A stretch of 64,000 nt of DNA, from positions 54,890-118,889 of the forward strand of contig RSEH01000150.1 in NCBI GenBank assembly GCA_006503475.1, written 5' to 3'. Shown piece after piece: positions 1,702 to 13,308 of this stretch. Within the stretch, counting starts at the first letter, position 1. The number at the start of each line of letters is the position of its first letter. The translations under genes were made by a program, and so were the position numbers. The notes beneath the pieces are model-generated. The model had not been told where the DNA came from. It saw only the letters and a program-made list of their open reading frames with translations, and ran no database searches. Source of the stretch: Stentor roeselii. Taxonomy: Eukaryota > Ciliophora > Heterotrichea > Heterotrichida > Stentoridae.

Positions 1702-3081
1702 TCACATCAAAGGCTTGATCCTCGGCTTGGGTTTTCCTTCAACATCTAAATTTTTATACCGAGCACAAACTTCATCTAAACTTTCAACAGCCTGATCAAA
1801 TCTTTCCTTTTCCATGAAGTTTGTGTAATGATGCACATTCGCCTTCCTCTTATAAAGTCTCATGAACTTAGTTTTAAGACTCGCGAAATGGTTAACAATG
1901 CAACTGTTATTAGAAAGACATAAAAGTGAATAAGGCATTCCAACAGGAGGAGTATTACAAAGTCCAATTTTATACCCTTCCTGATTCCAGCTGATCATTT
2001 TCATGTCATTTTTAATTCTACCGATATTTCGATGAATATCAGAAATTTTTGCATCGCCTCTTAAAATAAGTCCACAAGCCAAATAAGTAGAATGTTTCGG
2101 GTCGACTTTTAACAACTGGAAGTCTTTATCAATAACATCATTAAAGATCTGATCAAGTCGTCTCGGTTCCATTTTCACGTCTAAAATCGAGTACAAGGGA
2201 CTGATACTTGAAACTAGATAAGGCATCTTAGGAAAAGGCACAAGGTTCATTGTTATTTCGTTTAAGTCCACGTTTAACATTCCCTCGAAACGCATTGAAC
2301 AGGTCAGGTTGTTTAACATGTGAGCGATTATGTTGTTCATTTTGGCGAAGGCTTCTTTTTTGTCGCTTGGCTGGGCGATGTCGTTTTTTATTTCTTTTTT
2401 AGATTTTCTTTTGCTTTCTTCTATCATTTCTAGCATACCGATTAGTGCTTGGTTGTCTACTGGAAGTACACAGTCTGCGAACTCTGTTAGAACACTCATT
2501 GCTAGGACTGAGTTGTATGGACCTGTCACTACATCGTCTTCTGGGAAGACAACTGTGGAAAAACGGAAGACTTCTGGGAAGTTGTCTGCGAGTAATGATA
2601 AAGTGTAAGTTCCAACTCCACTTCCAGTTCCCCCTCCCATACTATGTGTAAGAAAAAACGACTGAATAGAGTCACAATGTTCCACATTATACCTAACTTT
2701 CTCCAAAATATCCTCATGATACTTCTGTCCATACTCATAATGTCCATGAGCCCAGTTATTTCCAGCTCCAGAAACATCCGAAATAAGCTGGCGGGAATCA
2801 AACAATTCGCCCAGGTCACTTCTAAGCATATTATTGATAACCCCTTCTTCCATATCAATAACAACCGACCTAGCCCTAAGATTACAAATAGGTTTTCCGA
2901 CAGGTATATCAAGAGGTTCAGCATACCGAGTATCAACATTTCTAAAAAAGCTCGACAAAGCATCATCAAAAACTCCAGACTTGTTATACCTTGCATGTTC
3001 CTGCAAAGCAAGATCCCAGAACCTCATAGCGATTTGATTTCCACATTGACCAACCTGCACCGTGACGAGTTCTCTAGGCAT
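1702..3081 (-). CDS. TUBE1: Epsilon-tubulin
   Basis: 459 residues with the full tubulin fold. The N-terminal nucleotide loop (VGQCGNQI, residues 10-17) and the tubulin signature GGGTGSG near 150 are intact, so GTP binding is expected. The epsilon class is shown by the FFRNVDTR segment near 45, the DMEEGV segment near 76, the DSRQLISDVSGAGNNWA block near 95 and the EDDVVTGPYNS stretch near 182, none of which fit alpha, beta, gamma or delta tubulin. Epsilon-tubulin is needed to form and stabilise the triplet microtubules of basal bodies, which suits a heavily ciliated cell. The stop is TGA. Composition flips abruptly inside the gene near 2605. Confidence 0.93.
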   Translation of the reverse strand: MPRELVTVQVGQCGNQIAMRFWDLALQEHARYNKSGVFDDALSSFFRNVDTRYAEPLDIPVGKPICNLRARSVVIDMEEGVINNMLRSDLGELFDSRQLISDVSGAGNNWAHGHYEYGQKYHEDILEKVRYNVEHCDSIQSFFLTHSMGGGTGSGVGTYTLSLLADNFPEVFRFSTVVFPEDDVVTGPYNSVLAMSVLTEFADCVLPVDNQALIGMLEMIEESKRKSKKEIKNDIAQPSDKKEAFAKMNNIIAHMLNNLTCSMRFEGMLNVDLNEITMNLVPFPKMPYLVSSISPLYSILDVKMEPRRLDQIFNDVIDKDFQLLKVDPKHSTYLACGLILRGDAKISDIHRNIGRIKNDMKMISWNQEGYKIGLCNTPPVGMPYSLLCLSNNSCIVNHFASLKTKFMRLYKRKANVHHYTNFMEKERFDQAVESLDEVCARYKNLDVEGKPKPRIKPLM

Positions 3082-3099
3082 TTATAAGATTAATACTTA

Positions 3100-3145
3100 A
3101 ACCTCCGACAACTGAATACTTTTCCAGCAGTCTTCACTTTGGTTG
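3100..3145 (-). promoter_or_regulatory. SECIS element of the first glutathione peroxidase
   Basis: Read on the minus strand, a hairpin begins about five bases after the TAA of the upstream GPx. It has a lower helix AACC/GGTT, a 5' core GTGA facing a 3' GA, an upper helix GACTGCTG pairing with CAGTTGTC (one T-T mismatch and one G-T pair), and an apical loop with AAAA. This matches the eukaryotic SECIS plan: the SBP2-binding kink-turn quartet plus apical adenosines. The same structure follows the second GPx with a changed base that keeps pairing. It lies between the GPx stop and the epsilon-tubulin start, so the 3' UTR must be tiny. Confidence 0.88.
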
Positions 3146-3149
3146 TGTT

Positions 3150-3656
3150 TTATAAGAATTTCTTGAAATGCTGAACGACTTCTAAAGGATCTGTCCTTGG
3201 TCCGTAATACTCAATCTTGCTTCCGTCTCTGTTCACGATGAACTTTCCGAAGTTCCAACCGATTCGACCACCGTCAAGGTTACTGCGAAGACGGAGGTAT
3301 TTGAAAAGGTCGCAGGCTTGCTTTCCGTTTACTTTTGTCTTGGAAAAGACGGGAAATTCTGCACCTTTTGAACGGACAAATGCGAGAATTTCTTGGTCTG
3401 AACCTGGCTCTTGTCTCATGAACTGGTTGCAGGGAAAGGCAAGGATTTGAAGACCTTGGGATGAGTATTCTTTTTCGATTTGGACCAATTCAGCGTAGTG
3501 CTGGTTGGTTAGACCTCACTTTGTCGCAACGTTTACTATCAATAGCACCTTGCCCCTGTAATCTGACATTGAGACAGATTCACCTCCCATCGCTCGTACG
3601 GAAATGTCGTAGATGGAGGTGAAGGGGTTGGCGCAGCTGGATTTAGCTCCACCCAT
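3150..3656 (-). CDS. Selenocysteine glutathione peroxidase (GPx4-like), TGA read as Sec47
   Basis: The gene reads as 168 residues only if the TGA at 3516-3518 is decoded. That codon sits exactly at the GPx catalytic position (NVATK-U-GLTN). The other catalytic residues follow: Gln78 in the PCNQF block and Trp134-Asn135 in WNF. Short length and lack of an oligomerisation loop point to the monomeric GPx4 group, which reduces hydroperoxides, including lipid hydroperoxides, with thiol donors. The ATG at 3656 is preceded by AATAAA. A SECIS-like hairpin starts just after the TAA, supporting selenocysteine insertion over a nonsense mutation. A paralogue follows upstream at 4242-4747. No transit peptide is evident. 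Confidence 0.92.
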
Positions 3657-4190
3657 TTTATTAGACCTAAATTTTTACTGATTTTATGTAATTTGCATGT
3701 TAAAAGCCAACAGAAATCCAGTTTAAGTTGAATTTTCAAGTGATTTAAAGATAAATTTGTCAATATATGTATATCTAATAATTTAACTTATGAAATCGAC
3801 TATAAATCCAATTAATCTTTTCAAAGTTTCATTCATTTTTTTTCAAAAACTATTATCATCAGAAATCCTTTGAATTTTCAATTTTAAATTGAAAGTTGAG
3901 CTAAAGATTTTGGATAAAATTAATTTCAATGAAACACAAGTTGAAGTTTTCATTTTAACTAAATATCACAAATTTATATGAAATAACATACGACCCAAGA
4001 CTAGATAATATTCAGCATAAATTATTCTCAGAAATATCATATCTTGAAAGAGAAAATTAAAGGCCTTCCACTCATAACTCCTTATTCTCTCTCTAAAATA
4101 TATTATAAGATTCGAATAAAAAACCCTCCTCCAAAGAATTTCACCTTTTTCATCATCTTCAAAGATACCATTTCTTATATTAATTATATT
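3657..4190. other. Intergenic spacer between the two GPx genes
   Basis: About 530 nt, very AT-rich. It should hold the promoter of the first GPx (minus strand, right next to 3656) and whatever follows the SECIS of the second. The open frames here are short, AT-driven and have no recognisable protein character. I see no RNA gene or repeat. Confidence 0.5.
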
Positions 4191-4235
4191 AACCTCAGAC
4201 AGCTGATTACTTTATCAGCAGTCTTCACTTTGGTT
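4191..4235 (-). promoter_or_regulatory. SECIS element of the second glutathione peroxidase
   Basis: It starts about six bases after the TAA at 4242-4244. The plan is the same as for the first: AACC/GGTT lower helix, GTGA and TGA core, GACTGCTG paired with CAGCTGTC, and an AAA apical loop. Relative to the first SECIS, one G-T pair has become G-C and the loop sequence has changed while the core is unchanged. This is the pattern expected for a selected RNA structure after duplication. Confidence 0.87.
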
Positions 4236-4241
4236 GTTATT

Positions 4242-4747
4242 TTATAAGAATGGTGTAAAAAAAGGAACTACATCCAAAGGACAAGTTTTAGGTCCAAAGT
4301 ACTGAATGAGGCTCCCATCTCTATTAACAAGAAACTTTGCAAAGTTCCAAGTAATTTCACCTCCATTCAAGTTGCTATTGAGTCTGAGATACTTGTAAAG
4401 ATCAGAAGCTTCATTTCCATTCACCATAATTTTAGAAAAGACTGGAATTCTGCACCTTTGGAACGAACAAATGAAAGAACTACTTGATCCGAGTCTGGCT
4501 CTTGAGCTCCGAATTGATTGCAAGGAAAGGCAAGGATCTGAAGGCCGGAAGAAGAATATTGTCTTTCGATTTGGACTAACTCGTTGTAGTATTGACTTGT
4601 AAGTCCTCACTTTGATGCCACGTTTACTATTAAAAGCACCTTGTCCCGGTATTCTGACATTGAGACAGAACCTCCTCCGATCGCGTTCACTGAGATGTCG
4701 TAGACGGAGGTGAAGGGATTGGTGCAGCTAGAATTAGCTCCATCCAT
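4242..4747 (-). CDS. Second selenocysteine glutathione peroxidase, with a one-base frame break
   Basis: A close paralogue of the neighbouring GPx. The ATG at 4747 and the in-frame TGA at 4607-4609 again fall at codon 47 within NVASK-U-GLTS; the PCNQF and WNF catalytic blocks are present. The gene is 506 nt against 507 for its twin. Around 4445-4450 one T is missing in the run encoding the conserved EFPVF segment, so the frame shifts by one base and everything downstream, including Trp and Asn of the tetrad, lies in another frame. It is either a recent pseudogene, a sequencing error or a shift site. The intact SECIS and preserved downstream codons suggest the break is recent or artefactual. 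Confidence 0.8.
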
Positions 4748-4997: not shown

Positions 4998-7900
4998 CTA
5001 ACTATGATGTAAAGCCAGAAGTTTATCAAGTTTCTGCTCAATCCTCAAGTTATTCTCAAGTCCCTTCAGCTGATTTTTCTCAATTTCCCTAAACCTTCCA
5101 TTAAAATCCTTTGAAATTTTTTCAATTTTCATTTCGATTTCCTTAATCTTCCCTCCCCAAGGTTCATCTTCATTTTCCTTAGTATCCAAATCACAAAGTT
5201 GTAAAAATCCCTTTTTTTTGACAGTTTTAACCAATAAAAACAAGCTTTCAACTTCTGAAATAACATCAAGTTTTTCTTTATAATCCAATTCCAGTGCCTC
5301 TATTTGAAACTTATCAAAAGAGTCACTGATAACAGCGATGAGTAGATTGAGCATCATGACGATATTCAGCAAAGAAGCTAAAACAAAATAAAGATACTCA
5401 ATATTCGGCTTTGAACTTGCTTCAAATACTCCAAAGTTCAATTCATAAGGAATTTTCCAAAGCATGTTGAAAGCGTCTTCCCTGGGGCCGACTGAAGCAA
5501 TATAAAGTCCTCCAAAGGCAAGCGTCGTGTAAAAGAAAATAATTAAAAAATACGCTGAGTCTGAAATGATCCGAGTCAACAAAGCGATGTAAAACCTTGT
5601 CCCGTCAAAAGCTTTAAAAATGTTCAGTCCTTTCATAAAGTTGAAAAAAGTCATCAACCATTGCACTCCCGGAGAATTAATATCATAAATCATGAAAATG
5701 CTCCAGATTAAAGTGAATATAATGCTGAGAATGTCGATGATGTTTCTTCTGCATATAAAGTAAACTTTCACTCCTTCATAAATAAACTGAAGGACTTCAT
5801 GTAACAACATCACCAAGTTCAACCCCATAAAAACCATCAAAATCCTCGAGTCCTTCCCTTCAGTCGACAAGTTTGCAAGCATCAAAACGATATTCAAACT
5901 CAAAACAGCACTAAAAAATAAAACAATTTTATAAAAAACCCGAAATTTATAATCAAGAATCGTTCTAACCAGTTTCGTTGTAAAGATTTTCTGATTTTTC
6001 ACAAAAGCCAGCGCTTTGATCATCTGAAAAAATCCAGAACTTCCATTAGTGAGATTGATTTGGAAAGGAGTCGTTCGAAATTCAACAAAACTTTCATATT
6101 TCAAGTTAATTTTCATTACCCCGCATTCACTTTTGAACTCTTCGAAGTTGATCTTGGTATGATGAGTGAACATGAGAACTGGCGGCTTTAAACATCTGAT
6201 GCTGTTAGGAAGTCCTTTGTCTTTACTCACCTTGAAAACACTTTCAAGGTACACAGGGACTAAAGGCGAGGAAAGTTTAAGAATTTTAAAAAAATCATCT
6301 CTGATAGCAAAGTTGTATTCAAAGTACTGTGCAAGAGTTTTTTCAGTTTTACTCAAGTTTATCAAGAACTGTAAAATAATGTCTGTTGATTTCTGAGAGT
6401 CTTTCTGGATTGAGTAGAAAAGAGGAGAGTTTTTATAGGAATCTCGACGAATTGGGCATCCTAGTTGAAGGGCTTTTTCCAGGTTGGTGTAATACCCGAG
6501 GTAACTGTAAAGATGAGCTAGGTTCACCTGCCCCGGCATGATAATCTTACAGTCAGAAGCCACTGGCAGAAGCTTTTTATTGAACCTTTGCCTGAAACCA
6601 TTATAAACAAGAGCAGGGTACAAATTCGAATTTCTTTCTAAAATTTCTGAGTGCTTCAAAGGCACCTTTTTCTTGATTTTCAAGTAGTCCCGGTCTAAAG
6701 ACCTATCGGGCAGGTCAAAAGTCTCATCTCCTGATTTTGAGCGATTGATTCTGAGCAACTGAGAAAGTTTCCAGATCTTTATCGAAGTGTCACGTGAACC
6801 ACTTATCAGGTACTTATTTGAGTCAGTCAATTCGAGACTTTCTACTTGATCTGTGTGGCCTTTGAAAGTCATTTCAATCCGCTTTTCAGACATGTTGAAA
6901 ATTTCGATGTTTCCTTCTTTGTTCCCCACGATGATGAAATTTCCACAACCGGTGACAACGCATTTTTTTATTGCTGAAGAACATCGAAAACAAGAAACTT
7001 CGAGTTTTTTGTTTATGTTGAAAACTTTTAACTCGACATCGTCTGAGACTATGGAAAAAACTGAGGAGGATAAAATGTTTAAGATTATTGGCCACTTGCT
7101 GTTTTGCTCTTTTAACACGCAGAATACTTCAAAATTGTCGAAATTTAAGATTTGAATTGTTGTGTCTGTTAAAATCACAACTAGTTTAGAATAATTTGCA
7201 ATGAACTGAAATCCGTGGATTGATGAATTAATTTTTTTCCTTTGTATGAAGACTTGCTTCTTCAAATTAAAAACGTCAAGACAGCCGTCAAGGGATGAAA
7301 TCACTATAAGTCCTTGCCTGTTGAATTCTAGAGACGAAATCGCATCGTCGTATTTTAAGGAAGTGTAAAAGCTTAGGGTTTCGATTGAACAGAACCTGAC
7401 GGTGTAGTCGCCTGAGGTGTACGCGAAAAAGTCATCTAAGTGATTCACAGCTAGACGATAAATATAACTCGAAGGACCTTCAAATGTATGAATCAAAGTC
7501 CCAGTGGAAACCTCCCACATCTTCACTGTCGAGTCCCAAGAGCAACTTAAAACTTTTCCATCTTGAGTCTGACCAAGTCCACTAACATAATGAGAATGTG
7601 ACTTGAGCACATGTAAAGGTTTTGATTGTTTCATCTTCCAGATGATCACAAGTTTATCCCACCCTCCACTTATCAGGTGTTTGTTGTCGACTGCCATTAG
7701 TAAACAACTCACGTAGTTTGAATGACCTGATAAGGAAATTTTAGTACTTTTGTCGTTGATGTCCCAAAATTTTAATGACTTGTCGAAACTACAGGATATT
7801 ATTTTACTGTTGTTTTCGATGGTCTCGATGTCTGTGATTATTCCAGAATGACCTTCGAGTATCAGCTCGTGCCGGTTTTCTAACATGTTGTCTATCACGA

Positions 7901-8855
7901 TGCTTCTGTATGAGACACTTATTAAGAAGTTACTTTTGCCGATTAGACGAACATAGCTTATGTAGCTTAAGTGAGAGTCTTGAAGGAAAAGTAGAGATTT
8001 TAATTTGGTGTCCCAAACTCGCACTGTTTTATCTTGTGAACCGCTTGCTAAAATGGAATCGTCGTGGTTGAAGGCTGTTGAGTATATTTCTCCTACATGC
8101 CCAATGAAAGTAAATATCTCTTCACCCTTCCCAAAATTCCAAAGTTTCACCGAATAATCCCCTCCACCAGAAGCCATAAGCTCCTTTTTATTCCCAACAG
8201 AAAAGCAGTTAATCCAACTTTTATGCCCTTCAAATTTCGCAGTATATTTAAAAGTATCCAAATCCCAAACAATCAAGCAAGCATCTTGCGAAGCCGAGAC
8301 CAAAACATTCCCCTTAGCAATTTTAATCGAATTGACAGGTCCCTGATGCGCACTAAGTTTAATTTCCGGAAAATCCGTGAGAAACTTCCAGACCCTGACA
8401 GAAAAATCATCACTTCCAACACAAGCCAAGTTTCCACCTTCATTAAAACAAATCGTTTCAGGCATGGCGGGTTCCAAGTTTAAAGACTTGAAGAACTTTG
8501 AACTAATCACATCAAAAATCGCGATAGTTGAATCATGAGAAGCTGTTAAAATAAACTGATCACAGGCAGAGATTTTAATTCCAATGATACTTTTCGAGTG
8601 ATATTTGAATGTTTCAACGATTTGATTAGAAGTGATGTCGAATTTTATCACAAGGCCTCCTTCACAGCCGATGAAGAGTTCTTTTGAGGTTTTTGTTGGG
8701 GCAAGGTTGTAAAGAACTACTTCTGAGTTGAAAGTTTGGTAGTAAAGAGGGTAGTCTTCTTTTAGTCGCTCGGAAAGAATTTTAAGTGAGTTGGACTTGG
8801 AGCATTTTTCTTCGAGAACTGTCGCGTCGTGAGGGATGTAGTCGGGAATAATCAT
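4998..8855 (-). CDS. WD40-repeat / TRP-like cation channel fusion protein (copy A)
   Basis: 1285 residues. Residues about 50-690 hold some 14 WD40-like repeats (GH...D..V..W patterns such as GSQDKTVRVWD and GSRDTSIKIWK), enough for two seven-bladed propellers. A linker region of about 690-960 follows. Helices lie near 972-995, 1005-1025, 1045-1065 and 1095-1118, with a pore-like segment near 1128 and a last helix with NIVMMLNLLIAVISDSF near 1155-1180, which matches the S6 end of TRP-type Ion_trans channels. The tail is helical. I infer a membrane cation channel with a large cytosolic WD40 sensor or scaffold. The ion and the stimulus cannot be read. The stop is TAG. Copy B lies directly upstream on the same strand. 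Confidence 0.85.
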   Translation of the reverse strand: MIIPDYIPHDATVLEEKCSKSNSLKILSERLKEDYPLYYQTFNSEVVLYNLAPTKTSKELFIGCEGGLVIKFDITSNQIVETFKYHSKSIIGIKISACDQFILTASHDSTIAIFDVISSKFFKSLNLEPAMPETICFNEGGNLACVGSDDFSVRVWKFLTDFPEIKLSAHQGPVNSIKIAKGNVLVSASQDACLIVWDLDTFKYTAKFEGHKSWINCFSVGNKKELMASGGGDYSVKLWNFGKGEEIFTFIGHVGEIYSTAFNHDDSILASGSQDKTVRVWDTKLKSLLFLQDSHLSYISYVRLIGKSNFLISVSYRSIVIDNMLENRHELILEGHSGIITDIETIENNSKIISCSFDKSLKFWDINDKSTKISLSGHSNYVSCLLMAVDNKHLISGGWDKLVIIWKMKQSKPLHVLKSHSHYVSGLGQTQDGKVLSCSWDSTVKMWEVSTGTLIHTFEGPSSYIYRLAVNHLDDFFAYTSGDYTVRFCSIETLSFYTSLKYDDAISSLEFNRQGLIVISSLDGCLDVFNLKKQVFIQRKKINSSIHGFQFIANYSKLVVILTDTTIQILNFDNFEVFCVLKEQNSKWPIILNILSSSVFSIVSDDVELKVFNINKKLEVSCFRCSSAIKKCVVTGCGNFIIVGNKEGNIEIFNMSEKRIEMTFKGHTDQVESLELTDSNKYLISGSRDTSIKIWKLSQLLRINRSKSGDETFDLPDRSLDRDYLKIKKKVPLKHSEILERNSNLYPALVYNGFRQRFNKKLLPVASDCKIIMPGQVNLAHLYSYLGYYTNLEKALQLGCPIRRDSYKNSPLFYSIQKDSQKSTDIILQFLINLSKTEKTLAQYFEYNFAIRDDFFKILKLSSPLVPVYLESVFKVSKDKGLPNSIRCLKPPVLMFTHHTKINFEEFKSECGVMKINLKYESFVEFRTTPFQINLTNGSSGFFQMIKALAFVKNQKIFTTKLVRTILDYKFRVFYKIVLFFSAVLSLNIVLMLANLSTEGKDSRILMVFMGLNLVMLLHEVLQFIYEGVKVYFICRRNIIDILSIIFTLIWSIFMIYDINSPGVQWLMTFFNFMKGLNIFKAFDGTRFYIALLTRIISDSAYFLIIFFYTTLAFGGLYIASVGPREDAFNMLWKIPYELNFGVFEASSKPNIEYLYFVLASLLNIVMMLNLLIAVISDSFDKFQIEALELDYKEKLDVISEVESLFLLVKTVKKKGFLQLCDLDTKENEDEPWGGKIKEIEMKIEKISKDFNGRFREIEKNQLKGLENNLRIEQKLDKLLALHHS

Positions 8856-9408: not shown

Positions 9409-12400
9409 CTATTTATTTAAAATTTTATCAAGTTTTTCCTCAATCTTTCCAAACATTTTCTCAAACTCATCATGCTTCTTCTCAATTTTTTCTTCAATCC
9501 TTTCATAAGCTAAAGCAACATTACTCTGTCCATTCAACAAGACCTTAAACTTTCCCTGAATATCTTTAGAAATCCTTTCAACTTTCATCTGAATTTCCTT
9601 AATTTTCCCTCCCCAAGCTTCCTGATCACGGTCCTCGATTTCCAGGTCACAAAGTTGCAAAAACCCTTTTTTCCTCTTCACTCTTCCCAAAAGACACAAA
9701 CTTTCAACTCGAGCAATGACGTCCATTTTTTCTCGATAGTCAGATTCAAGAGCTTCTATTTGGAACTTGTCGAAAGAGTCGCTTAAAATAGCGATTAAAA
9801 GGTTAAGCATCATAACAATATTTAACAAAGAGGCTAAAACAAAGTAAAAGTATTCAATGTCAGGTTCATGACTTGCTTCGAAGACTCCAAAGTTGAGTTC
9901 ATAAGGAATTTTCCATAACATGTGAAAATTGTCGAACTTTTGACCCACTGAGGCAATAAAAAGACCTCCAAAGGCAACTGTTGAGTACATGAAAATTATT
10001 AAAAATGAATAGGTCTCTTGAGTTACCCTTTTTAATAAGGCAATGTAAAAACGGGTCGCGTTGAAGGCTTTAAAAATGTTGAGACCTTTTAAAAAGTTTA
10101 GAAAAACCATTAGCCACTTTAGGTATCTGAAGTCTTTATTAGTCATTTCGAAAAACACCCAAGTCAAAGAAACTAAAACACTTGTTAAGTCCAGTAAGTT
10201 CCTACTGCATCTTAGATAATATTTTAATCCTTCATACTTCACCTGTAGAAACTCATGGATCAACATAAAGGAATTTAAAGTAAAGAAACTTAAAATCACT
10301 GAAAAATCACGAACTTGAACTGAAATACAAAAAATCATCAAAATTAACTCAAAGGCTAAAACGAAACTCAGTCCTAGAATAAGTTTAAAAAAAGTCTTGA
10401 ATTTGTAATCAAGAATAGTTTTAATGAGCTTAGTTGTAAAAATTTTCTTATTTTTACTAAAAGTCAGGGACCTGATCAACTGAAAAAAACCTTGACTACC
10501 GTGAGTTAATTCAAGTTCAAAAGGAGTTGTTCGATATTCAATAAAATGCTCGGATTTTTTGCATATTTTAGAAACACCAGAGCCTGTTTTAAACTTTTTA
10601 AAGTAAATCTTACTGTGTTCTGTTAGAATCATCACAGGAGGCACAAAACAACGAACACTGTTTGGAAGACTTTTGTCTTTTGATAAGAAAAAAATGCTTT
10701 CTAAGAATTGAGGAACTAATGATGAAGAAAGTTTCAATATTTTTAGTAAATCGTCTCTTAGAGCGAATGTGTATTCAAAAAATTTTTCTTCATTGGATTT
10801 GCTCAGGTCTATTAAAAACTTTAAAATTACATCTGATGATTTTTGTGAATCTTTAGATATTGCATAATAAAGTGGAGAGTTTTTAGATAAATCTCTCCTA
10901 ATTGGGCAACCTAACTTTAATGCTTTTTCCAAATGCTGGAAGTACCCGAGGTAGCAGTAAAGATGAGCCAGGTTAATCTGTCCAGCCATCATTATCTTGC
11001 AATCAGTTTCAACCGGCAGAAGTTTTTTACAGAACCTCTGACGAAACCCATTATAAACAAGAGCCGGGTATATTTTTAATGACTCAGCATAAGACTCAAA
11101 CGATTTTGGCATTTTTTCTTTGTGAGAGCTGCAAAATCGATGACTTAAAATTCGATTATCTTGTGAGTTTCTCTGATTTGCGTTGGTTTCTTCAGGGCCT
11201 GAATGGTCTAACTCTTTAAGGTACTGGCTCAGTTTCCACACTTTTAAAGTAGTGTCCCTTGAACCACTTATCAAGTATTTGCTTGACTCAGTTAATCCAA
11301 GACTACCGACTAAATCAGTATGGCCTTTGAATGTTGCTTCTTCTCGCTTTTCACTAACGTTAAAAATTATTATTGTTCCTGTCATTGTACCGACTATTAT
11401 GAAATTTCCACATCCGGTCGTTACACAACTTTGGACTGGATGAATTGATTTGAATGTGAAAAATTCAACTTTTCGCTCAATATCAAATATTTTTATATCA
11501 ACTCCGTTTGAGATGATTGTAAAGTAAGAGTAAGATAAGATATTCATTATAACTGGCCATTTAGCAAAATGTTCAAAAAAGCTAGATAAAATCTGAAAAC
11601 TATCAGCATCAACTAGCTTAAAGCTCTTATCACTAAGTACAACAATAATTTTTTTATAGTCAGAAGTAAACCTAAACCCAAAAACCTCAGATTGAAATTT
11701 TCTATTATTCAAGATTTTTTTTTTCTTGAGGTCATACGAATCAAGAGTTCCATCAAGTACACTAAGTACAACAACATCATTCAAATTAAAGTCCATGAAA
11801 GACACAAAATCCGAGTAAGCAAGACAAGAAACCTCATCAAAACTTCCAAGACTCCAAAACCAAGCCTTATAATCCCCAGAGCAGCATCCAACAAAATCAG
11901 AAAAAAACGAAAGCTTAAGTCGATGAATAGAAAATGCAGGTCCTTTGAACGTCTGAATTAAAATTCCATTAAAAACATCCCAAACTTTAATAGTAGAGTC
12001 CCAAGAGGCACTTAGCACCTTTTTGCCGTCATTAGTCTGTTCAAGACAGCTGACGTAATGAGTATGAGCTTTGAGACTGTGAAGATTTCGACATTCCTTC
12101 AACTTCCAGATGACCACCAAGCCGTCCCACCCGCCACTGACAACAAAGTTGTAGTCATTAGTAATTAAAATGCAACTCACGTTTCCTCCATGGCCGTTTA
12201 AACTAGTTTTCATGTTCTGGTCGTTGATGTCCCAAAACTTTACAGTCCTATCAAAACTGCAACTGATAATTTGACTACCAAAGACTTCCATTTGTGTTAT
12301 CATTCCAGTGTGACCCTCTAGAACAACTTCAGTTCTCTTTTCAGAGAGATTATCGACTAGAATATAACGATATGATGAACTTACTAGAAGGTTGTTGCCG

Positions 12401-13308
12401 ACAAATCGGAGAAAGCTGATGAAATTTTGGTGATTCTCTTGAATGAATTGAATTGACTTTGATTTTAAATTCCAAACACGAACTGTGCGGTCTTGTGAAC
12501 CACTTGCTAGAAGACTGTCGTCGAAGTTGAAGGCAAGTGAGTAGATTTCACCGACATGGCCGAAAAAACTAGAAATTTCTTCGAAATTTCTGAGATTCCA
12601 AAGTTTTACTGAATTTCCACCTCCTGAAGCGACTAGGTCTTGCTTATGACTGATTATAAAACAGTTAATTGAAGTCTTATGCCCTTGAAAGCAGCCTTTT
12701 TCTTTTAAACTTGCGATTTTCCATAGTTTTAAAGTCCCATCCTGTGAACTAGATGCTAAAAACTTCTCTTTTACAATCAAAAGTGTAATAATCGGCCCTG
12801 AATGAGCTAAAATTTGAGTTTCTTTGTCATTTGTTAGAAATTTCCAGATTCTGATGACGGAATCGTCTGATCCGACGCAGGCTGTTTCTTCATCTAAAGT
12901 AAAACAAATCGTTTCAGGCACTGCAGGGCTAAGGTTGAGTCTTTTGATGAATTTTGACAGGATGACATCAAAAACAGCTACAGTGCAGTCATGTGAAGCA
13001 CTCAATAAATAGCTGTCAAGAGTGGAGATCTTCAGGTTGACTACTCCTTTTGTATGATATTTGTATGTGCTTTTTTCTTCGTGTTTCTCCAGGTTGTACT
13101 CGATTATTGATCCACCTTCGCAGCCGATGAATAATTCGTTTGTTGTCTTGGTTTTTATGAAGTTGAAAAAGGCTGAATCTCCTTGAGAAGAGTGAAAAAA
13201 CATTGGATAGTCACTTTTTAGTGTGTCGACTAGAGATTTTATACTTGATTTCTCAATGGTATTTGGAAAGACTGTTGCATCGTGAGGGATGTAATTGGAA
13301 TTTAACAT
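9409..13308 (-). CDS. WD40-repeat / TRP-like cation channel fusion protein (copy B)
   Basis: 1299 residues, with the same domain order as copy A: about 14 WD40-like repeats (residues about 50-690), a conserved linker with the YPALVYNGFRQRF block, then channel helices. The last helix again carries NIVMMLNLLIAILSDSF, preceded by the strongly conserved LWKIPYELNFGVFEAS pore region. Copy B has a longer C-terminal helical tail (about 1240-1299) rich in Glu and Lys, likely a coiled coil. The two copies are a head-to-tail tandem duplication with considerable divergence in the propellers and highest identity near the pore. The function is inferred from the fold: a gated cation channel of the cell or ciliary membrane. 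Confidence 0.85.
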   Translation of the reverse strand: MLNSNYIPHDATVFPNTIEKSSIKSLVDTLKSDYPMFFHSSQGDSAFFNFIKTKTTNELFIGCEGGSIIEYNLEKHEEKSTYKYHTKGVVNLKISTLDSYLLSASHDCTVAVFDVILSKFIKRLNLSPAVPETICFTLDEETACVGSDDSVIRIWKFLTNDKETQILAHSGPIITLLIVKEKFLASSSQDGTLKLWKIASLKEKGCFQGHKTSINCFIISHKQDLVASGGGNSVKLWNLRNFEEISSFFGHVGEIYSLAFNFDDSLLASGSQDRTVRVWNLKSKSIQFIQENHQNFISFLRFVGNNLLVSSSYRYILVDNLSEKRTEVVLEGHTGMITQMEVFGSQIISCSFDRTVKFWDINDQNMKTSLNGHGGNVSCILITNDYNFVVSGGWDGLVVIWKLKECRNLHSLKAHTHYVSCLEQTNDGKKVLSASWDSTIKVWDVFNGILIQTFKGPAFSIHRLKLSFFSDFVGCCSGDYKAWFWSLGSFDEVSCLAYSDFVSFMDFNLNDVVVLSVLDGTLDSYDLKKKKILNNRKFQSEVFGFRFTSDYKKIIVVLSDKSFKLVDADSFQILSSFFEHFAKWPVIMNILSYSYFTIISNGVDIKIFDIERKVEFFTFKSIHPVQSCVTTGCGNFIIVGTMTGTIIIFNVSEKREEATFKGHTDLVGSLGLTESSKYLISGSRDTTLKVWKLSQYLKELDHSGPEETNANQRNSQDNRILSHRFCSSHKEKMPKSFESYAESLKIYPALVYNGFRQRFCKKLLPVETDCKIMMAGQINLAHLYCYLGYFQHLEKALKLGCPIRRDLSKNSPLYYAISKDSQKSSDVILKFLIDLSKSNEEKFFEYTFALRDDLLKILKLSSSLVPQFLESIFFLSKDKSLPNSVRCFVPPVMILTEHSKIYFKKFKTGSGVSKICKKSEHFIEYRTTPFELELTHGSQGFFQLIRSLTFSKNKKIFTTKLIKTILDYKFKTFFKLILGLSFVLAFELILMIFCISVQVRDFSVILSFFTLNSFMLIHEFLQVKYEGLKYYLRCSRNLLDLTSVLVSLTWVFFEMTNKDFRYLKWLMVFLNFLKGLNIFKAFNATRFYIALLKRVTQETYSFLIIFMYSTVAFGGLFIASVGQKFDNFHMLWKIPYELNFGVFEASHEPDIEYFYFVLASLLNIVMMLNLLIAILSDSFDKFQIEALESDYREKMDVIARVESLCLLGRVKRKKGFLQLCDLEIEDRDQEAWGGKIKEIQMKVERISKDIQGKFKVLLNGQSNVALAYERIEEKIEKKHDEFEKMFGKIEEKLDKILNK

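Follow-up and report, generated by a model that had tools for sequence, protein, structure and literature searches.

Two tandem glutathione peroxidase (GPx) genes lie on the minus strand of a 64,000-nucleotide (nt) stretch of DNA from the heterotrich ciliate Stentor roeselii (contig RSEH01000150.1, positions 54,890 to 118,889; this whole stretch is called the window here). Each gene carries an in-frame TGA at catalytic codon 47 and, within a few nucleotides of its stop codon, a hairpin with the parts of a eukaryotic selenocysteine insertion sequence (SECIS). We put the probability at roughly nine in ten that the first gene, GPx1, encodes a selenocysteine (Sec) glutathione peroxidase in which UGA codon 47 is read as Sec by means of a SECIS located in the first ~60 nt past the stop, and that this near-contact of stop and SECIS is the layout of the lineage in all 14 selenoprotein-like genes that we recovered from the genome, with short 3' untranslated regions (UTRs) pushing the SECIS against the coding region.

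A tandem GPx pair with stop-adjacent hairpins

The features of the two genes, in window coordinates, are as follows.

3150..3656 (read 3656..3150), minus strand: GPx1, glutathione peroxidase of 168 amino acids (aa), family PF00255; stop TAA at 3152..3150
3516..3518, minus strand: Sec-position TGA of GPx1, codon 47, aligned to a Cys of 2p5q
3094..3147, minus strand: SECIS hairpin of GPx1, GTGA core at 3137..3134; 51.7 bits with covariance model R1 (training member)
4445..4747, minus strand: GPx2, piece upstream of a frame break, 101 codons, TGA codon 47 at 4609..4607; family PF00255
4242..4442, minus strand: GPx2, piece downstream of the frame break, 66 codons plus TAA, in another frame
4185..4238, minus strand: SECIS hairpin of GPx2, GTGA core at 4228..4225; 53.9 bits with R1 (training member)

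Against the Pfam family GSHPx (PF00255), GPx1 scores 124 bits, and GPx2, taken as its whole first frame, scores 92.7 bits. The TGA of GPx1 aligns with a Cys column of the GPx structure 2p5q, and we take this residue to be the GPx active-site cysteine. An initial annotation of this DNA, made from the letters alone, had placed an in-frame TGA at codon 47 of both genes, and we found it there (3518..3516 in GPx1 and 4609..4607 in GPx2). The two hairpins have in common a GTGA/GAG core and apical A's, and the distance from the stop to the first base of the core is 12 nt in GPx1 (3137) and 13 nt in GPx2 (4228). The annotation had also put the beginning of the hairpin about six bases past the TAA, in agreement with the lower helix of GPx1, whose first paired base is, by eye, the 6th nt.

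Model R1 was built exclusively from the hairpins of the nine GPx genes of the genome and was then run on loci of other families. On the two strands of the window, these two sites were the only ones to score above 17.1 bits. Since both are training members of the model, independent support has to come from covariation across the nine genes and from genes outside the training set.

The hairpin is shared and covaries across the GPx family

The genome searched was a 44.39-Mb assembly of 522 contigs, and the genes in the window are of eukaryotic type. It contains nine GPx matches, every one of which has exactly one TGA inside the match, at the catalytic position, and a hairpin past the stop, with GTGA at 12 nt in seven genes and at 13 nt in two. 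The eight intact GPx proteins show 40 to 77% pairwise identity, and the hairpins are strongly diverged. When the nine hairpins were aligned with MAFFT, two-sided changes were present in 14 of 16 pairs, and the covariation score was 0.691, compared to at most 0.247 with the partner strand slid by 1 to 3 columns; none of 500 shuffles reached the observed score. Extending the alignment to 14 hairpins, fitted to the model, gave two-sided changes in 15 of 16 pairs and a score of 0.796 (at most 0.266 when slid); 8 of 500 shuffles reached 15 pairs, and none reached 0.796. With RNAalifold by itself, helix II is recovered and helix I is not, so the case for helix I rests on the nine- and 14-hairpin covariation. 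GTGA and GAG, which correspond to the NUGA ... GA non-Watson-Crick core that eukaryotic SECIS elements have at the foot of helix II, are invariant in all 13 aligned sequences and are present in the 14th as well. All 14 also have an apical AA within the limits given for such elements in PMC2375036: 10 to 13 nt past the quartet, with a minimum of 15 nt between it and the GA. The annotation had offered the hairpins as something that could be refuted; they emerge as a covariation-backed structure common to 14 genes.

Two of the GPx copies, L012 and L013, form another tandem pair, with L012 coming 123 nt after L013; in this pair, the Trp of the catalytic tetrad is replaced by Leu (GLNFGKF versus GWNFGKF).

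GPx2 starts at 4747, and its frame is broken near 4443-4444. Similarity to GPx continues in another frame (open reading frame [ORF] 4242..4610) up to a stop TAA at 4244..4242, and the first frame, continued past the break, holds two further TGAs and one TAG. The annotation had described the two genes as a tandem pair of GPx selenoproteins; the part concerning the Sec-position TGAs and the hairpins stands for both genes, but GPx2 is frame-broken in the assembly and the break had been missed. The break favors an alternative in which the genes, GPx2 especially, have decayed, so that UGA terminates and the hairpins are relics, and a survey has called some ciliate GPx SECIS elements relics (PMC7409322). 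We consider decay very unlikely, given that GPx1 and seven other copies (eight of the nine GPx genes, all except GPx2) have frames intact except for the TGA and that the hairpins covary. The comparison of GPx1 with GPx2 itself argues in the same direction: upstream of the break, nonsynonymous divergence (dN) is 0.137 and synonymous divergence (dS) is 0.96, and downstream of it, 44 of 66 residues are identical (dN, 0.244; dS, not estimable). Searched alone, as a 122-aa frame, the downstream piece matched no Pfam family at an E value of 0.001. To judge from these sequences, both GPx2 pieces look as though they had been held under selection until recently, and the break is due to recent mutation or, alternatively, to misassembly. 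GPx2 has the same signals as GPx1, in a frame that is broken in the assembly.

Other selenoprotein-like genes of the genome

In addition to the nine GPx genes, we recovered TrxR, SPS2, one SelS-like gene, and two SelW-like genes. Eleven of the 14 were found by protein family, regardless of their core, and three were found by a GTGA pattern with a stop at most 150 nt upstream. The TrxR frame ends Gly-Cys-UGA-Gly-stop, and R1 scores 38.2 bits at its 3' end. SPS2 has its UGA at codon 25, an R1 score of 19.2 bits, and a core exactly 12 nt past the stop. SelW-like 1 is an 87-aa protein with Cys-Gly-Gly-UGA (R1, 32.3 bits), and SelW-like 2 lies at L080:2483-2734 on the plus strand (R1, 23.9 bits). 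The SelS-like protein ends Gly-Gly-UGA-Arg-stop (R1, 30.0 bits) and matches the Pfam SelS family at 19.6 bits, under the cut-off of 29.8. In TrxR, both SelW-like genes, and the SelS-like gene, the frame contains a single TGA, at a Sec position, and has the hairpin at its 3' end. SelW-like 1 and 2 are related to each other, with their UGAs in alignment (BLASTP, 8e-10), but their assignment to the family is weak (TIGR02174 with an E value of 0.14 for one, no match for the other). Searches of PDB with these two proteins returned nothing significant, and a SelW/SelT/SelH family search of the genome did not recover the two genes. That family search did return nine Rdx (SelW/SelT/SelH) matches without TGA, in frames of 143 to 972 aa (L027-L035).

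Because the genome pattern search was limited to 35-nt cores and to stops within 150 nt, the count of 14 genes is a minimum. There were 79 matches to the GTGA pattern, compared to 43 in the backward control, and 139 to the ATGA pattern, compared to 49; since the ATGA excess is the larger of the two, the excess itself is uninformative with regard to SECIS elements. Only a helix II filter (at least 8 of 10 pairs) separated the patterns, passing 9 of the 79 GTGA matches versus 1 of the 100 ATGA matches listed (139 in total). The ATGA match with at least eight pairs is at C162:51448, and two near-identical ATGA matches, at C88:99681 and C339:264880, have an off-register helix by eye. The genome may have AUGA-type elements as well. 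Of the GTGA matches that passed the filter, eight belong to UGA-containing genes. The ninth, at C54:49465 (L085, around 1966), has 8 of 10 helix II pairs and no recognizable selenoprotein gene beside it. Among the nine candidate regions that were read, L082, L083, L085, and L087 had no recognizable gene and L081 had a partial SPS2 copy only. That copy belongs to a pair: the ends of contigs C281 (L081) and C377 (L084) share a 186-bp stretch, 98.4% identical, containing the 3' end of SPS2 and its SECIS. The partial copy on C281 lacks the remainder of the gene, and a TGA takes the place of the TAA stop of the C377 copy.

Two further observations concern the ends of these genes. The stop is TAA in 13 of the 14 selenoprotein-like genes and in 16 of the 36 ORFs of the window (Fisher P = 0.003, with paralogues that are not independent), and none of the 14 genes ends in TAG. 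At the TrxR locus (L036, minus strand), a GC-rich stretch between the stop and the SECIS, and hence also between the Sec UGA and the SECIS, folds on its own (RNAfold, -10.6 kcal/mol for 46 nt, without a shuffle control) and might be a second recoding signal.

Selenocysteine machinery and the meaning of UGA

The annotation had pointed to the machinery for Sec in the same genome as a place to look, and most of it is there. A tRNA-Sec with a TCA anticodon and a following T run scores 64 bits (cut-off, 47), and ARAGORN agrees. SepSecS scores 388 bits, and SPS2, which has its own TGA, scores 219.7 bits. The best PDB match of the eEFSec candidate is a selenocysteine-specific elongation factor (4.5e-117), and the eukaryotic third and fourth domains are present. 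An SBP2-like protein of 302 aa matches SBP2 at 3e-22. Two 15-nt GT..AG stretches interrupt the SepSecS frame with TAG, and we read them as introns. Introns of 15 nt are a heterotrich trait.

An alternative is that UGA encodes an ordinary amino acid (e.g., Trp or Cys), as in some other ciliates, and that the hairpin is something else. UGA is reported to encode Trp in Condylostoma and Parduczia (PMC4967479), and in the window, it ends only 3 of 36 ORFs (TAG, 17; TAA, 16; TGA, 3). However, TGA is absent from all 16,663 codons of these ORFs, in which TGG occurs 181 times; the frames end at TGA by construction, and it is the long proteins that carry the point. None of 61 thioredoxin-family matches contains a TGA either. 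Moreover, the TGAs discussed here occupy Sec positions in selenoprotein families and are followed by a SECIS-like hairpin, and most of the machinery for Sec is present. We thus regard a general sense reading as extremely unlikely: TGA is a rare stop and not a general sense codon.

Distance between stop, UGA, and SECIS core

The distance from the stop to the GTGA core is 12 nt in eight genes (seven GPx genes and SPS2) and 13 nt in two GPx genes. In the others, it is 16 nt (SelW-like 1), 26 nt (SelS-like), 35 nt (TrxR), and -4 nt (SelW-like 2), and because of these four distances, we reject a strict 12-nt rule. SelW-like 2 uses the UGA of its GUGA core as its stop codon, and its mRNA would hold one UGA for Sec and another as the stop. 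The two longest spacers are found in TrxR and the SelS-like gene, in both of which the Sec codon comes two codons ahead of the stop. From UGA to core, the distance is 41 nt in TrxR and 32 nt in the SelS-like gene, both below the published UGA-SECIS minimum of 51 nt (PMC3737529); recounted in the other genes, it is 209 to 999 nt.

Whether the 12- to 13-nt spacing reflects a constraint or is simply inherited from one ancestral GPx gene is, in our estimate, close to an even bet. Nine of the 10 genes at 12 to 13 nt are GPx paralogues, and the other families are at 12, 16, 26, 35, and -4 nt, as inheritance would have it. On the other hand, the unrelated SPS2 is at exactly 12 nt, and the letters of the GPx spacers have diverged while their length has been kept. 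In Condylostoma, a ribosome on a stop codon covers the following 11 or 12 nt (PMC4967479), and the match of this length with that of the spacers is suggestive. In most of the 14 genes, the core would be situated just beyond a ribosome sitting on the stop, and it is farther away in the two genes in which the Sec codon adjoins the stop.

A more far-reaching proposal, which we consider doubtful, is that in this lineage, how each UGA of a selenoprotein mRNA is read depends on how far it lies from the SECIS core. Termination would take place at a UGA that is part of the core (SelW-like 2) or 12 nt ahead of it (the partial SPS2 copy), because a ribosome on that UGA would cover or melt the SECIS; at 32 nt (SelS-like) and at 41 nt (TrxR) ahead of the core, UGA would be read as Sec. 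The core would then be parked at the edge of the footprint of the terminating ribosome, and the lower limit for Sec would lie between 12 and 32 nt.

The window also bears on what lies downstream of GPx1, where the neighboring feature is the following.

1702..3081, minus strand: tubulin gene with Pfam tubulin domains (the label "epsilon" comes from the earlier annotation only)

The ATG of this gene (3081) is 68 nt past the GPx1 stop, and the first SECIS (3147..3094) is situated entirely within these 68 nt, just as the annotation had described it. The annotation had further suggested that the short spacer fits an ultra-compact genome. Crowding by the next gene is insufficient on its own to account for the spacing. 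We rejected the idea that the next gene forces the spacing, since six GPx copies without a near neighbor (L007-L012) keep 12 nt; within 197 nt downstream of these six, there was no frame of at least 90 aa and no further GPx copy. The annotation had also described so small a spacer as unusual. The core is at most 35 nt past the stop in 14 genes, but very short 3' UTRs were already on record for heterotrich ciliates, as was a TrxR with little distance between UGA and SECIS (PMC4967479).

Other genes of the window

Gaps of 14 to 36 nt separate 7 of 21 same-strand neighbor pairs in the window, and one further pair overlaps. Two tandem minus-strand frames at 4998-8855 and 9409-13308 (1,285 and 1,299 aa) are alike by eye, and by eye, the C-terminal part of each is multi-pass membrane. 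WD40 repeats were found in the 1,285-aa frame (Pfam, among the best 25 of 47 families).

Discussion

The observation of stop-adjacent hairpins together with TGAs at codon 47 is confirmed, and the earlier interpretation of these genes as selenoprotein genes is supported. The genes, their TGAs, the covarying hairpins, and the machinery genes are present in the assembly, and from them, we infer actual insertion of Sec. A ribosome at the early UGA would receive Sec-tRNA(UCA) through the SBP2-like protein and eEFSec acting at the hairpin, which by its parts (GUGA/GA core, helix II, and apical AA) would be a SECIS of the eukaryotic type. Such an element would be ~50 nt long, and the shortest possible layout would be one in which it starts at the stop. 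The medians of heterotrich 3' UTRs are 21 to 23 nt (PMC4967479); since a SECIS needs ~50 nt, selenoprotein mRNA tails would be unusually long for the lineage.

Several points weigh against this reading or against parts of it. Short 3' UTRs as the cause of the spacing are borrowed from other heterotrichs, and such a cause is proposed by analogy. The SelW-like 2 core overlaps the stop, which contradicts any strict requirement for a core outside the ribosome footprint. The three genes found by pattern were selected for a GTGA and a nearby stop and are thus no evidence for either GTGA or closeness. The R1 score of SPS2 is near the 17.1-bit background of the same search. Among the machinery genes, eEFSec scores 227.6 bits, under the 242.25-bit cut-off of the bacterial SelB model, and PSTK is represented by a weak match only (25.9 bits; E value, 7.8e-5; cut-off, 382.35). 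The fold of the GPx1 hairpin alone is no more stable than its shuffles (z score, -0.99). The GPx2 hairpin alone has a z score of -3.71, and as single-sequence folding is clear for one gene and unclear for the other, we used comparative evidence instead. Finally, the annotation had named Infernal SECIS models as a check, and Rfam models gave no SECIS match in the window or in eight loci, including TrxR and SPS2 (a search run without a positive control). Our reading is that the public models perform poorly on this lineage. Four weak Rfam matches, on the opposite strand and far under the cut-offs, were dismissed as chance.

The closest published relatives of this system are in other ciliates. In Condylostoma magnum and Parduczia, the Sec UGA of TrxR is nearer to its SECIS than a 51- to 111-nt model allows (Swart et al. 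2016, PMC4967479), as it is here, and C. magnum also has a tRNA-Sec(UCA). In these two ciliates, however, UGA also encodes Trp, whereas in S. roeselii it looks like a rare stop and Sec only; S. roeselii extends the cases in that paper to 14 genes, including GPx and a stop-overlapping element, with evidence based on structure. Euplotes crassus and human TrxR resemble the TrxR described here in that a eukaryotic SECIS serves a Sec codon near the C terminus, but the stop-to-core distance is 124 to 138 nt in E. crassus and ~225 nt in humans (PMC3737529), in contrast to 35 nt. A GUGA_AA core in place of AUGA_AA is common among SECIS elements of Chlamydomonas, Ostreococcus, and a sponge (PMC3473315); unlike in those organisms, GUGA is present here in all 14 genes and the element is against the stop. 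Eukaryote-like SECIS elements of Lokiarchaeia are reported to have a UGA stop that overlaps the core (cited in PMC11227280), as in SelW-like 2. Those genes are archaeal, and the present case is a eukaryote with eukaryotic-type machinery in which overlap occurs in 1 of 14 genes. In Stentor coeruleus, Sec is present in all seven GPx genes, as in all nine here, but that survey reported no SECIS in the Sec-GPx genes and no tRNA-Sec (PMC7409322); both were found in S. roeselii.

In the limited literature that we looked at, which lacked most subscription papers, we saw no account of a group of eukaryotic selenoprotein genes with the SECIS next to the stop, nor of a eukaryotic SECIS whose core UGA doubles as a stop codon. 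Subject to that coverage, what may be new is the placement of the SECIS close to the stop in 14 genes, the overlap of one SECIS with a stop codon, and the series of natural spacings.

The usual description of eukaryotic SECIS elements puts tens or hundreds of nucleotides between them and the stop codon, whereas in these 14 genes, the cores lie within 35 nt. Stop-adjacent GUGA elements missed by standard models would explain the undetected SECIS elements of Stentor Sec-GPx genes (PMC7409322), though not the tRNA-Sec part of that result. The genes of S. roeselii also provide a natural spacing series for how near a SECIS may be to a decoding or terminating ribosome.

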